From: Buchnera aphidicola (Chaitophorus viminalis)
GTDB lineage: Bacteria; Pseudomonadota; Gammaproteobacteria; Enterobacterales; Enterobacteriaceae
Assembly: GCF_026122795.1 (NCBI RefSeq)
Contig: NZ_JAIWQV010000002.1
Coordinates: 1-64,000 of the forward strand
Length of the DNA: 64,000 bases
Reading direction: 5' to 3'
Part shown: positions 40,564-47,259 of the stretch, piece after piece
Layout of the letters: the number at the start of each line of letters is the position of its first letter
Position numbering within the stretch: position 1 is the first letter of the stretch
Notes under the pieces: model-generated
Databases searched by the model: none
Told to the model about the DNA's origin: nothing
The model's input: only the letters and a program-made list of their open reading frames with translations
Program-made: the position numbers and the translations under genes

Positions 40564-42471
40564 ATGCCAGTTATAACTTTTCCTGACGGTTTTAAAAAAA
40601 AGTATAAAAATTCAATTTCAATTAATAAAATTTTAGAAACTTTTCAAGATATTCAAAAAAATAAATATATTGCTGGATTTTTAAATAATAAAATTGTAGA
40701 TTTTCATACTATTATTACGAAAGATTCAAAATTGTCTTTTATTAAAAAAAAAAATAATTTATCTCTATCAATTATTAATAATACATTTGTTCATTTATTA
40801 GGTTATAGTATAAAAACTTTATGGCCAAAAATTAAATTACATAAATTTTTATCAGATGAGAATAAATTTTATTATGATTTTTATAAAAAAAATCCTTTAA
40901 AAGAAAAACATATAGCTTTAATTGAAAAAAAAATGCGAGATTTAATAAAAAAAAAATATTATATTTTAAAAAAAGACTTGCATTATCAAGATTTAAAAAA
41001 TATTTTAAAAAAATTAAATGAAGATTATAAAATTAAAATTTTAAAATTCAATTTTAAAAAAAATAACTATATTAGTTGTTATTTTCATGAAAATCATATT
41101 GATTTCATGATAGATATAGAAGCTCCTAAAATAAATTTTTGTAAATATTTTAAATTAAATAAATTATCTGGTGTATATTTAAATTCAGATAAAAAAAATA
41201 AAATGATTCAAAGAATTTCTGGAATATCTTTTTTAAATAAAAAAAACTTTTATTCATATTTTAAAAATTTAGAGTTAAAAAAAAATTTTGATCATAGAAA
41301 ATTAAATCTAACTTTAAATTTATTTCATTTACAAGAAGATGTTCCAGGAATGGTGTTTTGGCATAATAATGGATTTTTTATATTTAAAAAATTAAAAAAT
41401 TTTATTAGAAGAAAATTAAAAAAATATAATTATCAAGAAGTAAGAACACCTATATTAATGAATAAATTTATATGGAAAAAAAGTGGTCATTTAGAAAATT
41501 ATAAAAATTTAATGTTTTCTACTTATTCCGATAATAAAGATTATTGTATTAAACCAATGAATTGTCCTGGTCATATAAACATTTTTAATTATAAATTAAA
41601 ATCTTATAGAGATTTACCAATTCGTATGTCAGAATTTGGAAGTTGTCATCGTCAAGAACCTTCTGGAGCTTTACATGGATTAATGCGTTTAAGAAATTTT
41701 ACTCAAGATGATGCGCATATTTTTTGTACTAAAGAACAATTACAAGATGAAATTAATCTTTGTATAAAAATGATTTATGAAATATATAACATTTTTTCTT
41801 TTAAAAAAATTATTGTTAAATTATCTACTCGTCCTGATAATAGAATTGGTGATAATTTTGTATGGGATCAGGCTGAATCTATATTAAAAAAAGTTTTAGA
41901 GAAAAATAATATATTATTTTCTTATCAAATTGGAGATGGTGCATTTTATGGTCCTAAAATTGAATTTGATTTACAAGATTCTTTTAATAGAAAATGGCAA
42001 TGTGGAACAATTCAATTAGATTTTTATTTACCTAAAAGATTAGGATCTTTTTACATTGATAAAAATAATATAAAAAAAACTCCAGTTTTAATTCATCGAG
42101 CAGCGTTAGGTTCATTAGAACGATTTATAGGAATTTTACTTGAAGAATATAAAGGTTACCTTCCAATTTGGTTATCTCCTATACAAGTTAAAATTATAAA
42201 TATTTCACAAAAAAATATTAAATATTGCCATACTATATTAAATTTTTTACAAAAAGAAAATATTAGATCTGAATTAGATTTAAGAAAAAAAAGTTTAGGT
42301 TTAAAAATTAGAGAAAGTACATTATTAAAAATTCCTTATATATTAATTTGTGGAGATAAAGAAGAAAAAAATAATACTATATCTTTTAGAAAAATTCAAG
42401 AAAATAAGATTTATAATATGAATTTATCAGATTTTATTCAAGAAATTTATAATGAAAATAGCGGTTTTTAA
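40564..42471 (+). CDS. thrS: Threonyl-tRNA synthetase with degenerate editing site
   Basis: Class II synthetase charging tRNA-Thr. 635 residues from this start (E. coli 642), chosen because MPVITFPDG is the family N-terminus. Domains: TGS (about 1-60), editing domain (62-225), catalytic core with MNCPGHINIFN near 333-343, FGSCHRQEPSGALHGLMR near 358-375 and GPKIEFDLQD near 461, and an anticodon-binding domain (from about 535). The editing domain lacks key residues: E. coli positions 73, 182 and 186 (His, Cys, His) are Asn, Met and Glu here; only His77 and Asp180 remain. The zinc-binding Cys/His of the catalytic core are intact. infC follows 25 bases later. Confidence 0.96.
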   Translation: MPVITFPDGFKKKYKNSISINKILETFQDIQKNKYIAGFLNNKIVDFHTIITKDSKLSFIKKKNNLSLSIINNTFVHLLGYSIKTLWPKIKLHKFLSDENKFYYDFYKKNPLKEKHIALIEKKMRDLIKKKYYILKKDLHYQDLKNILKKLNEDYKIKILKFNFKKNNYISCYFHENHIDFMIDIEAPKINFCKYFKLNKLSGVYLNSDKKNKMIQRISGISFLNKKNFYSYFKNLELKKNFDHRKLNLTLNLFHLQEDVPGMVFWHNNGFFIFKKLKNFIRRKLKKYNYQEVRTPILMNKFIWKKSGHLENYKNLMFSTYSDNKDYCIKPMNCPGHINIFNYKLKSYRDLPIRMSEFGSCHRQEPSGALHGLMRLRNFTQDDAHIFCTKEQLQDEINLCIKMIYEIYNIFSFKKIIVKLSTRPDNRIGDNFVWDQAESILKKVLEKNNILFSYQIGDGAFYGPKIEFDLQDSFNRKWQCGTIQLDFYLPKRLGSFYIDKNNIKKTPVLIHRAALGSLERFIGILLEEYKGYLPIWLSPIQVKIINISQKNIKYCHTILNFLQKENIRSELDLRKKSLGLKIRESTLLKIPYILICGDKEEKNNTISFRKIQENKIYNMNLSDFIQEIYNENSGF

Positions 42472-42496
42472 ATAAAGTACTATGGAGGAATAAAAT

Positions 42497-43033
42497 ATTA
42501 AAGGCTGGAAAAGAGTATCAAATATAAGAAAACATAGAATAAATAATGAAATTCGTGCTTTAAAAGTACGTTTAACTGGTTTAAAAGGAGAAAAAATAGG
42601 TATCGTTAGCATATATGATGCTTTGAAAAAAGCTGAAATAGAAGGGTTAGATTTAGTAGAAATTAGTCCAAATGCAGAACCTCCTGTATGTAAAATTATG
42701 AATTATGGGAAATTTATTTATACTAAAGCTAAAGCTTTAAAAGAACAAAAAAGAAAACAAAAAATTATTCAAATTAAAGAAGTAAAATTTCGACCAAGTA
42801 CAGATGAAGGAGATTATCAAGTTAAATTAAGAAATTTAAAACGTTTTTTAAAAGATGGTCATAAAGTTAAAATTACTTTGAGATATAGAGGAAGAGAAAT
42901 GGCTCATCAAAAAATTGGATTAGACGTATTACATAGAATTAAATTAGATTTAAGTAATATTTCTTCAATAGAATTTTTTCCTTCTAAAATAGAAGGTAGA
43001 CAAATGGTGATGATTTTATCTCCTAAAAAATAA
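42497..43033 (+). CDS. infC: Translation initiation factor IF-3 (AUU start)
   Basis: Binds 30S subunits, enforces start-codon choice and prevents premature 50S joining. 178 residues if started at the ATT at 42497 (E. coli 180). The first ATG is 126 bases downstream and would delete most of the N-domain; reading from ATT gives [20 protein letters not shown] and [11 protein letters not shown], which align with the complete E. coli N-terminus. A strong GGAGG lies 8 bases before the [23 protein letters not shown] near 58-77 and MAHQKIG near 135 are signatures. In E. coli the AUU start provides autoregulation by IF-3. Leads infC-rpmI-rplT. Confidence 0.95.
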
Positions 43034-44859: not shown

Positions 44860-47259
44860 ATGAAATTTAGTTTATCATGGTTAAAAAAATTTTTAAATAG
44901 AGATTTAAAAAATTCTTTAATTTGTAATCAATTAACAGAAATTGGTTTAGAAGTAGAAAGTTTACAAAAAAAAAAAAATTTTTTTAAAAATTCTTATATT
45001 GGAAAAATTATTTCTATATCTAATAAAAGTGATAAAAATATTTTAAAAATTAAATTCAATAAAAAGTTTATAATTAATGTTCTTACAAAAAAAAAAAATT
45101 TTTATATAGGTATGAAATTAGCTGTTGGATTAAAAAATCAAGATTTAATAGATTTTAAAAATTTTGTTAAAATAAATAAAAAAAATAATTTATTAATTTG
45201 GAAAATATATACATATTATGATTTTAAAATTTTTGGCAATAAAGATTATATCGTAGAGTTTCCTAAAGATCAAGAAATAGGAATTTTAGTTGAAAAATAT
45301 TTTAATAAATTTCCAGATGATTTATTAACTTTAAATATTACTCCTAATAGAAATGATTGTTTAGGAATTTTTGGTATAGCAAGAGAATTATCTGTTATTA
45401 ATAATTTCAAATTAAAAAATAAATTTAAACATTGTAATAATTTGAAGAAATTAAAATATAATAATGATTTTAAAATTTCTATATCTAATCATAGTATTTG
45501 TTCCAGTTATTTTATAAAAATTATTAAAAATATAGATTTATCTATTCAGACTCCGTTTTGGATTAGAGAGAGATTAAGAAAATCTCATATTAATTCTATT
45601 AATATTATTTATGATGTTGTTAATTATGTTTCTCTTGAATATGGTCAGTCTATTCATATTTTTGATTTAGATCAATTTAACAAAAAAAAAATAAAAATTA
45701 GATTATCTAAATCTGATGAAAGTATTTTATTGAAAAAACATTCTTTAGTTAAAATTTTTAAGAATACATTAGTTTTTGAAAATAATGGAAATATTTTTTC
45801 TTTAGGTGGTTATATTAATTCTAAAAATTATTTGATAAATGAAAATACTAAAAATATTTATATTGGATCAGGAGTATTTAAAAATAGTTTAATTAATTAC
45901 ATTAAAAAAAAATATAATAAATATTATGTTTCTTATGATAATTATTATAGACAATGCGAACTTAATTTATGTATTTTTTCTTTAGAACGTATTTCAAAAA
46001 TATTATCTAAATTTTTTTCTGGTATTCATACTTCTAATATTTGTTTAATAAATAACAGAAATATTAAAAAAAATATAGTTTTATCATATAAAAAAGTTAA
46101 TAAAGTTTTAGGATTTGTTATTAATAAATTTATGGTTTTAAATATATTAAAAAAATTAGAATATATAATTTTTGAAAAATTATATAAATTAATAGTTATT
46201 CCTCCTAACTTTCGTTCAGATATTATATATCCAGAAGATGTTATATCTGATTTAATACGCTTTTATGGATATAATAAGTTACCTAGTTTACCTTTAGAAT
46301 TAAATTCATATATACCAAAAAAAAATTTTGTTTTAAATAAATTGTTTAAAATAAAAAAATTTTTATCTCATAAAGGATATTCTGAAGTAATAAATTATAG
46401 TTTTACTGATAAAAATTCTCAAAAGTTATTTTTTAAAAATAGAAAACTAATAAAAATTATTAATCCAATTTCAAAAGATTTGTCTTATATGAGAACGTCT
46501 TTATTTCCTGGTTTATTAAAAAATTTAAATTATAATGTAAATCGTCAACAAGAAAATTTTCGTTTATTTGAAAGTGGATTATGTTTTATTAAAAATAAAA
46601 ATAAAACACTTAAAACTAATCAAAATTTATTATTATCAGGAATAATTAGTGGAAGTAAATTTCAAAAAAATTGGTTTAATAAAGAAATAAAATTTAGTTT
46701 CTATGATTTAAAATATGATCTAGAAAAATTTTTATTATATTTTTATAATATAAATAATATTTATTTTAAAAAATCTTATATAAATGGATTTGATGCAAAT
46801 ATATGTGCAAAAATTTATTTTCAGAATATTAAATTAGGATGTATTGGATTATTAAGTTCTTCTATTAATAAATTTTTTAATATTATAAATAATATTTTTG
46901 CTTTTGAACTTTTTATAGAAAAAATTCCTATATTAAAAAAAAATCCTATACAAGAATTTTCTTTTTATCCTTATAGTGTAAGAGATATTTCAATTATTAT
47001 TTCTAATTCTATTAGTGCTTTAGATGTGATTAAAGAATGTTATAAAATTTCTTTAGAAAATATTTTTAAAATTACAATAATTGATGTATATCAAGGAGAT
47101 AAAATTCCAAAAAATAAAAAAAGTCTTTCATTAAGAATTTTTTTTAAAAATTTAAAAAAAAATTTTACTTCTAACGATATAGAAATATTATTTAGAAAAT
47201 GTATTCATAAAATTAAAGTTAAATTTCAAGCAGTTTTACGAGATAAAAAATTTTTATAA
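44860..47259 (+). CDS. pheT: Phenylalanyl-tRNA synthetase beta subunit, degenerate editing site
   Basis: Structural and editing subunit of PheRS. 799 residues (E. coli 795). Order: B1 and EMAP-like domain (1-150), B3/B4 editing domain (about 210-400), B5 with PNFRSDIIYPEDVISDLIR near 449-467, core-like domain with NRQQENFRLFESG near 560, and C-terminal anticodon-binding B8 (about 705-799). The editing pocket is eroded: the positions of E. coli Glu334, Thr354 and Ala356 are Gly336, Tyr356 and Ser358 here, though the His in QSIHIFD is kept. The EMAP region also lost its usual cysteine and SEGM motifs. ihfA, the expected next gene, is missing. Confidence 0.96.
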   Translation: MKFSLSWLKKFLNRDLKNSLICNQLTEIGLEVESLQKKKNFFKNSYIGKIISISNKSDKNILKIKFNKKFIINVLTKKKNFYIGMKLAVGLKNQDLIDFKNFVKINKKNNLLIWKIYTYYDFKIFGNKDYIVEFPKDQEIGILVEKYFNKFPDDLLTLNITPNRNDCLGIFGIARELSVINNFKLKNKFKHCNNLKKLKYNNDFKISISNHSICSSYFIKIIKNIDLSIQTPFWIRERLRKSHINSINIIYDVVNYVSLEYGQSIHIFDLDQFNKKKIKIRLSKSDESILLKKHSLVKIFKNTLVFENNGNIFSLGGYINSKNYLINENTKNIYIGSGVFKNSLINYIKKKYNKYYVSYDNYYRQCELNLCIFSLERISKILSKFFSGIHTSNICLINNRNIKKNIVLSYKKVNKVLGFVINKFMVLNILKKLEYIIFEKLYKLIVIPPNFRSDIIYPEDVISDLIRFYGYNKLPSLPLELNSYIPKKNFVLNKLFKIKKFLSHKGYSEVINYSFTDKNSQKLFFKNRKLIKIINPISKDLSYMRTSLFPGLLKNLNYNVNRQQENFRLFESGLCFIKNKNKTLKTNQNLLLSGIISGSKFQKNWFNKEIKFSFYDLKYDLEKFLLYFYNINNIYFKKSYINGFDANICAKIYFQNIKLGCIGLLSSSINKFFNIINNIFAFELFIEKIPILKKNPIQEFSFYPYSVRDISIIISNSISALDVIKECYKISLENIFKITIIDVYQGDKIPKNKKSLSLRIFFKNLKKNFTSNDIEILFRKCIHKIKVKFQAVLRDKKFL

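Follow-up and report, generated by a model that had tools for sequence, protein, structure and literature searches.

The threonyl-tRNA synthetase (ThrRS) encoded in the window, by which we mean the whole analysed stretch of 64,000 nucleotides from Buchnera aphidicola (Chaitophorus viminalis), is quite probably an ordinary bacterial enzyme in which the editing site has been inactivated by substitutions and the dead editing domain, N2, is kept for holding the tRNA in charging; serine would be expected at threonine codons, and the site would be one of three degenerate editing sites in the same genome. According to this reading, the substitutions would have inactivated post-transfer editing most likely before the genus diversified, and charging with threonine should persist; some Ser-tRNA-Thr would be made and no longer be hydrolysed by this enzyme, and the unhydrolysed product would raise the level of serine at threonine codons. 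The dead domain would presumably be retained as an aid in holding the tRNA.

The ThrRS of the window matches the bacterial ThrRS family TIGR00418 (610 bits, cut-off 383.65) and is 47.5% identical to the E. coli enzyme. Multiple alignments place residues 1–224 on those of E. coli with zero insertions or deletions, so that the E. coli numbering is valid here; a pairwise PDB search introduced a pair of one-residue gaps at about residues 24–34, which cancel each other, lie far from the site and leave the editing site in agreement. The preliminary description, which had aligned the two enzymes with no net gap and had counted three of four editing residues as lost, is confirmed on both points, the changes being H73N, C182M and H186E, with H77, K156 and D180 kept (Table 1). 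Taking the limits of N1 and N2 to be residues 1–62 and 63–224, 22 of 40 conserved columns are changed in N2 vs 10 of 122 in the catalytic domain (Fisher p 2e-9), 5 of 10 in N1 and 6 of 21 in the anticodon domain. A conserved column is one with 97% or more identity across 32 sequences from genomes of at least 1.7 Mb, a set that leaves aside the 11 genus members and nine reduced ones and includes G018 (2.0 Mb), so it may not be entirely free-living. The aminoacylation core, previously described as fully conserved, is nearly so, with 112 of 122 columns kept and the zinc ligands C334, H385 and H511 intact. In Pfam searches, tRNA_SAD scores 13.2 bits in the window ThrRS, under the cut-off of 24 (61.4 bits in E. 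coli), and TGS is not found (62.8 bits in E. coli). These comparisons support the conclusion that, at the level of sequence, the post-transfer editing site is gone.

Table 1. Positions in the window of thrS, its domains and editing-site codons, and of pheT.
Feature	Position	Strand	Remark
thrS, threonyl-tRNA synthetase	40564..42471	+	ATG 40564, stop 42469-42471, 635 aa plus stop
domain N1 (TGS-like), residues 1-62	40564..40749	+	Pfam TGS match gone
domain N2 (editing), residues 63-224	40750..41235	+	fold kept in the predicted model, catalytic residues lost
codon 73 AAT, Asn replacing E. coli His73	40780..40782	+	alignment to E. coli
codon 77, His kept	40792..40794	+	alignment to E. coli
codon 156, Lys kept	41029..41031	+	alignment to E. 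coli
codon 180, Asp kept	41101..41103	+	alignment to E. coli
codon 182 ATG, Met replacing E. coli Cys182	41107..41109	+	alignment to E. coli
codon 186 GAA, Glu replacing E. coli His186	41119..41121	+	alignment to E. coli
catalytic and anticodon-binding domains, residues 243-635, with intact zinc ligands	41290..42468	+	alignment, domain search
pheT, PheRS beta subunit, degenerate editing site	44860..47259	+	318, 334, 354, 356 changed; 265 kept

Beside thrS lies infC, encoding IF-3 (42497–43033, forward strand), with an in-frame ATT start at 42497–42499 behind a GGAGG at 42484–42488; the list of open reading frames gives a later TTG start only. In E. coli, infC starts at AUU, and this start seems to be conserved between the two organisms.

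The N1-N2 fold is kept in the predicted structure of the window ThrRS. The model, computed from an alignment with 33 relatives and only moderate for the whole enzyme (pTM 0.53), superposes residues 1–224 on residues 1–224 of 1tje, the solved crystal structure of the E. coli ThrRS editing domain, over 223 residues at 1.6 A (Z 27.9); 1tje was found in a separate comparison and is not among the best 50 Foldseek matches ordered by whole-model E-value. Since the two structures superpose residue on residue, no register shift supplies another histidine or cysteine at the site, and the intact His/Cys residues that a structure-based alignment might have revealed are not placed there by the model.

H73, C182 and H186 are replaced in all 11 genomes of the genus, so the loss, whose generality in the lineage had been raised only conditionally, is indeed general in this alignment. 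Position 73 is Asn in ten genomes and Ser in one, position 182 is Leu, Met or Lys, and position 186 is Gln in eight and Glu in three; H77 is kept in 8 of 11 (Gln in the other three), and K156 and D180 in all 11. N1 and N2 are free of insertions and deletions in 10 of 11, a single insertion occurring in G005. Most likely, the loss of ThrRS editing predates the diversification of the genus.

ThrRS was sought in 217 genomes, with a match at 1e-60 missing in three (G193 and G210, both of 0.2 Mb, and G048), and its residues were read in the 50 genomes of up to 1.2 Mb with a match, 11 of the genus and 39 others, and in 38 larger ones. By their size and kinship, the reduced genomes would belong to endosymbionts; the window's own genome, of 466,800 bases, is a small one with degenerate editing residues, and its size and gene set suggest a host-restricted life. 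N1 and N2 are missing together in nine of the 50, and in another 35 one or more of H73, H77, C182 and H186 are gone: three or four residues in 27 genomes, two in one and one in seven, with none lost in six. All four residues are kept in 32/32 larger-genome sequences and in seven of eight genomes of 1.4–3.3 Mb, the eighth, G073, carrying H77Q (G018 is counted in both sets). Prochlorococcus, Pelagibacteraceae and similar organisms are streamlined free-living groups; all 13 ThrRS sequences so titled keep the four residues, and a small AT-rich genome is therefore not by itself tied to the loss. The nine enzymes without N1 and N2 are 409–436 residues long (L044, L046, L050, L324, L325, L329, L330, L331 and L332), and those placed on the tree are dispersed over it. 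In L332 (genome G136, 0.3 Mb) the ThrRS match contains seven in-frame TGA codons, which may be read as Trp.

Selection for some role still acts on the dead N2 domain. A codon model built with the measured AT-rich composition (fourfold sites 47% A and 47% T) and run on ten genomes, G005 being excluded for its long branch, gave dN/dS values of 0.227 for N1, 0.193 for N2, 0.076 for the catalytic domain and 0.195 for the anticodon domain. For N2, a value of 1 (2dlnL 505) and equality with the catalytic domain (p 4e-31) are both rejected, whereas N2 and the anticodon domain do not differ significantly (p 0.92). The model recovered simulated values of 1.0, 0.5 and 0.2, the simulations being made under the same model, which real codon use may misfit. 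A clade-specific rise in N2 was not significant under this model (0.246 vs 0.183, p 0.10). The modified Nei-Gojobori count gave N2 values of 1.3 for the window's closest pair, 0.82 and 0.90 for the two next and 0.21 to 0.70 for four others, favouring near-neutral evolution of N2 in the window's own clade; because that count is blind to base composition, the suggestion was set aside for the composition-aware codon model. Expressed as distance relative to the catalytic domain, N2 goes from 1.38 in the larger-genome set to 2.28 in the genus, N1 from 1.67 to 2.89 and the anticodon domain from 1.81 to 2.52. The relaxation is therefore broad; at the once-conserved columns, which N1 and the anticodon domain have partly lost as well, it is strong in N2. 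Hence the initial idea of relaxed selection on proofreading only is not supported: the dN/dS of N2 resembles those of N1 and the anticodon domain, N2 itself is under purifying selection, and decay also affects LeuRS, PheRS and ProRS.

With a dN/dS far below 1 and like that of the anticodon domain, N2 probably still functions in the binding and charging of tRNA. This reading draws on yeast ThrRS, which charges poorly when deprived of its N-terminal domain, an effect linked to acceptor-stem binding by its authors in the available part of their paper (PMC4267643); the nine reduced genomes that live without N1 and N2 show that the domain is not always required for charging. Selection on N2 would also be expected if the dead domain were kept for translational autoregulation of thrS. 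The N-terminal domain of E. coli ThrRS helps to repress the mRNA of the enzyme itself, and the E. coli thrS operator has an anticodon-like loop, CGT. A CGT triplet is absent within 100 nt upstream of thrS in all 11 genomes of the genus, whereas E. coli has one at –33; this absence makes autoregulation less likely, and we find it scarcely credible as the reason for keeping the domain.

In E. coli ThrRS the editing kcat falls 7000-fold in H73A, over 500-fold in C182A or C182S and 70-fold in H186A, according to the accessible text of PMC4041444, and by analogy with these mutants the window enzyme would have lost its editing activity. The same figures weigh on the proposal that the pocket has been remodelled and still hydrolyses mischarged tRNA through H77, K156 and D180 together with the substituted residues at 73, 182 and 186. 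Such a pocket would agree with the purifying selection on N2, with the full retention of K156 and D180 and the frequent retention of H77 in the genus, and with the rather constant residues that replace 73 and 186 there; nevertheless, it appears distinctly improbable, since the residues lost are those costing E. coli 70- to 7000-fold (PMC4041444, as above), Met or Leu at 182 should be unable to take over the function of Cys, and K156 and D180 persist as well (in 14/16 and 12/16, respectively) in non-genus enzymes with three or four catalytic residues lost, which suggests a structural role.

Seven reduced genomes have a single loss, that of H73 in six and of C182 in one (G063), and H73 is changed in 34 of the 35 with any catalytic residue lost. 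Binomial tests of H73 being first, on few genomes, gave p 0.013 (five of seven) and p 0.004 (six of eight). The single-loss genomes occupy several positions, with weak support, in a tree of the catalytic and anticodon domains, from which the 13 streamlined sequences, L331 and L332 were left out and in which G067 and G117 are sisters. In this small sample, the residue most often lost first is also the costliest to lose in E. coli, as far as the mutants in the available part of PMC4041444 go.

The separate trans-editing protein on whose absence the preliminary description depended was not found among the families searched in the six contigs of the genome: PF07973 matches only in AlaRS, and PF04073, which covers YbaK-type editors, and PF02580 are unmatched, the archaeal-type PF08915 lying outside the search. 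Ser-for-Thr mistranslation would then be expected in this lineage. It is rather unlikely that, behind a dead site, pre-transfer editing, discrimination at the elongation factor or an undetected separate editor maintains most of the fidelity; yeast mitochondrial ThrRS, without an editing domain, does hydrolyse Ser-AMP, but pre-transfer editing alone fails to prevent the formation of Ser-tRNA-Thr, both statements coming from the portion of PMC4267643 at hand, and the family search speaks against a separate editor.

Judged from sequence, the genome has three degenerate editing sites, for Thr, Leu and Phe, together with a ProRS without its editing insertion. The residues, in E. coli numbering, are those with a role in editing, and counts refer to the 11 genus genomes, or to 10 for PheT because that of G003 was not recovered. 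In LeuRS, T252 and D342 are lost in 11/11 and D345 in 9/11; in PheRS beta, G318, E334, T354 and A356 are lost in 10/10 and H265 is kept in 10/10. The B3/4 editing domain of the window PheT scores 124 bits vs 253 in E. coli, and Pfam tRNA_bind (PF01588) has no match in it at E up to 1 (92.9 bits in E. coli). The ProRS insertion is missing in 10 of 11 genomes (392–400 residues; 572 in E. coli); the most divergent member, G005, retains it (ProRS loci noted: L226 and L214). AlaRS keeps C666 and H670 in 11/11 and the HxxxH motif in 8/8 of the members shown; positions 567 and 571, considered as its zinc histidines, proved not to be so, and the motif was read separately. The AlaRS of G016 (L204, L205) is split across two contig ends, with the CGGTH motif kept in its C2 part. 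ValRS keeps T222, R223, D230, K277, D283 and D286 in 11/11, with T279 as Ser in two, and IleRS keeps T241–T243, H333 and D342 in 11/11, with N250 as Ser in ten. Compared with the remainder of the enzyme, the editing part has a raised evolutionary rate in LeuRS (ratio 1.57, p 1e-11) and a slightly raised one in IleRS (1.23, p 7e-4), but not in ValRS (0.94), AlaRS (0.89) or PheT (0.99); faster evolution of editing domains once they are dead is too simple a rule to accommodate the IleRS and PheT ratios. In G018 (2.0 Mb, L275), where the ThrRS site is kept, that of LeuRS seems to have decayed (T252I, D342E, D345H).

In the available part of a review (PMC7373986), no Mycoplasma genome is known to have three or more such editing losses, and an upper limit is suggested. 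E. coli grows with little impairment when its ThrRS carries C182A, and an AlaRS editing mutant does worse at high temperature (PMC10057733, in part), costs that are in line with the systems lost and kept in the genus. A selected loss of proofreading, in which mistranslation itself helps by creating a statistical proteome, has been proposed for parasites in the accessible sections of PMC7373986 and PMC10057733, and the costliest residue, H73, is the loss in 6/7 single-loss genomes; yet an intracellular mutualist should have no plain gain from immune escape, AlaRS, ValRS and IleRS retain their editing sites, and drift is a simpler account of the distribution. We therefore regard selection for mistranslation as very unlikely.

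Decay of editing in host-restricted bacteria has already been published, and the window ThrRS, by its sequence, belongs there. Editing-degenerate synthetases in such bacteria were reportedly described by Melnikov et al. in PNAS in 2018, a study known to us through citing papers, and the present case likewise concerns a degenerate editing site in a small-genome host-bound bacterium; Li et al., in PNAS in 2011, are said to have dealt with the synthetases of Mollicutes. The available part of a review lists for Mollicutes defects of LeuRS, PheRS and ThrRS, a ProRS without editing domain and no YbaK, ProX or AlaX (PMC4014445). That set, so far as the source was available, is nearly the same as the one found here, and the selective pattern is less new than at first sight; in Mollicutes, however, the losses are spread over several species, the LeuRS and PheRS defects have been demonstrated biochemically and ProRS is of archaeal type, whereas here the losses are joint in one genome, read from its genes, and an enteric ProRS is missing its insertion. 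Yeast mitochondrial ThrRS, MST1, is described in the consulted part of PMC4267643 as likewise without post-transfer editing and error-prone, a condition that in Buchnera is predicted; MST1 has no editing domain at all, like the nine reduced enteric genomes, whereas the window enzyme retains it. Similarly, E. coli ThrRS with C182A or oxidised C182 is editing-dead and tolerated with little growth defect (PMC10057733, partial text), but as a laboratory mutant or a passing state, whereas the loss here is fixed in a natural lineage. Our literature search, which was thin on subscription papers so that absence means little, found no paper on ThrRS editing in Buchnera.

The present data contribute a dead domain under constraint, a series in which H73 goes first and several losses combined within a single genome, points that may overlap with Melnikov et al. 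2018, known only via citing papers. As a tentative generalisation, which we consider a serious possibility without holding it to be the probable one, decay in enteric endosymbionts would be ordered and selective: H73 would go first, then C182 and H186, and the domain would later become a constrained scaffold, as in this genus, or be deleted, as in 9/50; Thr, Leu, Phe and Pro editing would be dropped and Ala, Val and Ile editing kept, with at least three losses in one cell, above the limit suggested for Mycoplasma. Relatives of E. coli offer a natural series (site intact, one residue lost, domain dead yet constrained, domain entirely deleted), by which the order and the cost of losing proofreading are open to testing in one well-known enzyme, and which suggests that proofreading for Thr, Leu, Phe and Pro is dispensable and that for Ala, Val and Ile is kept.
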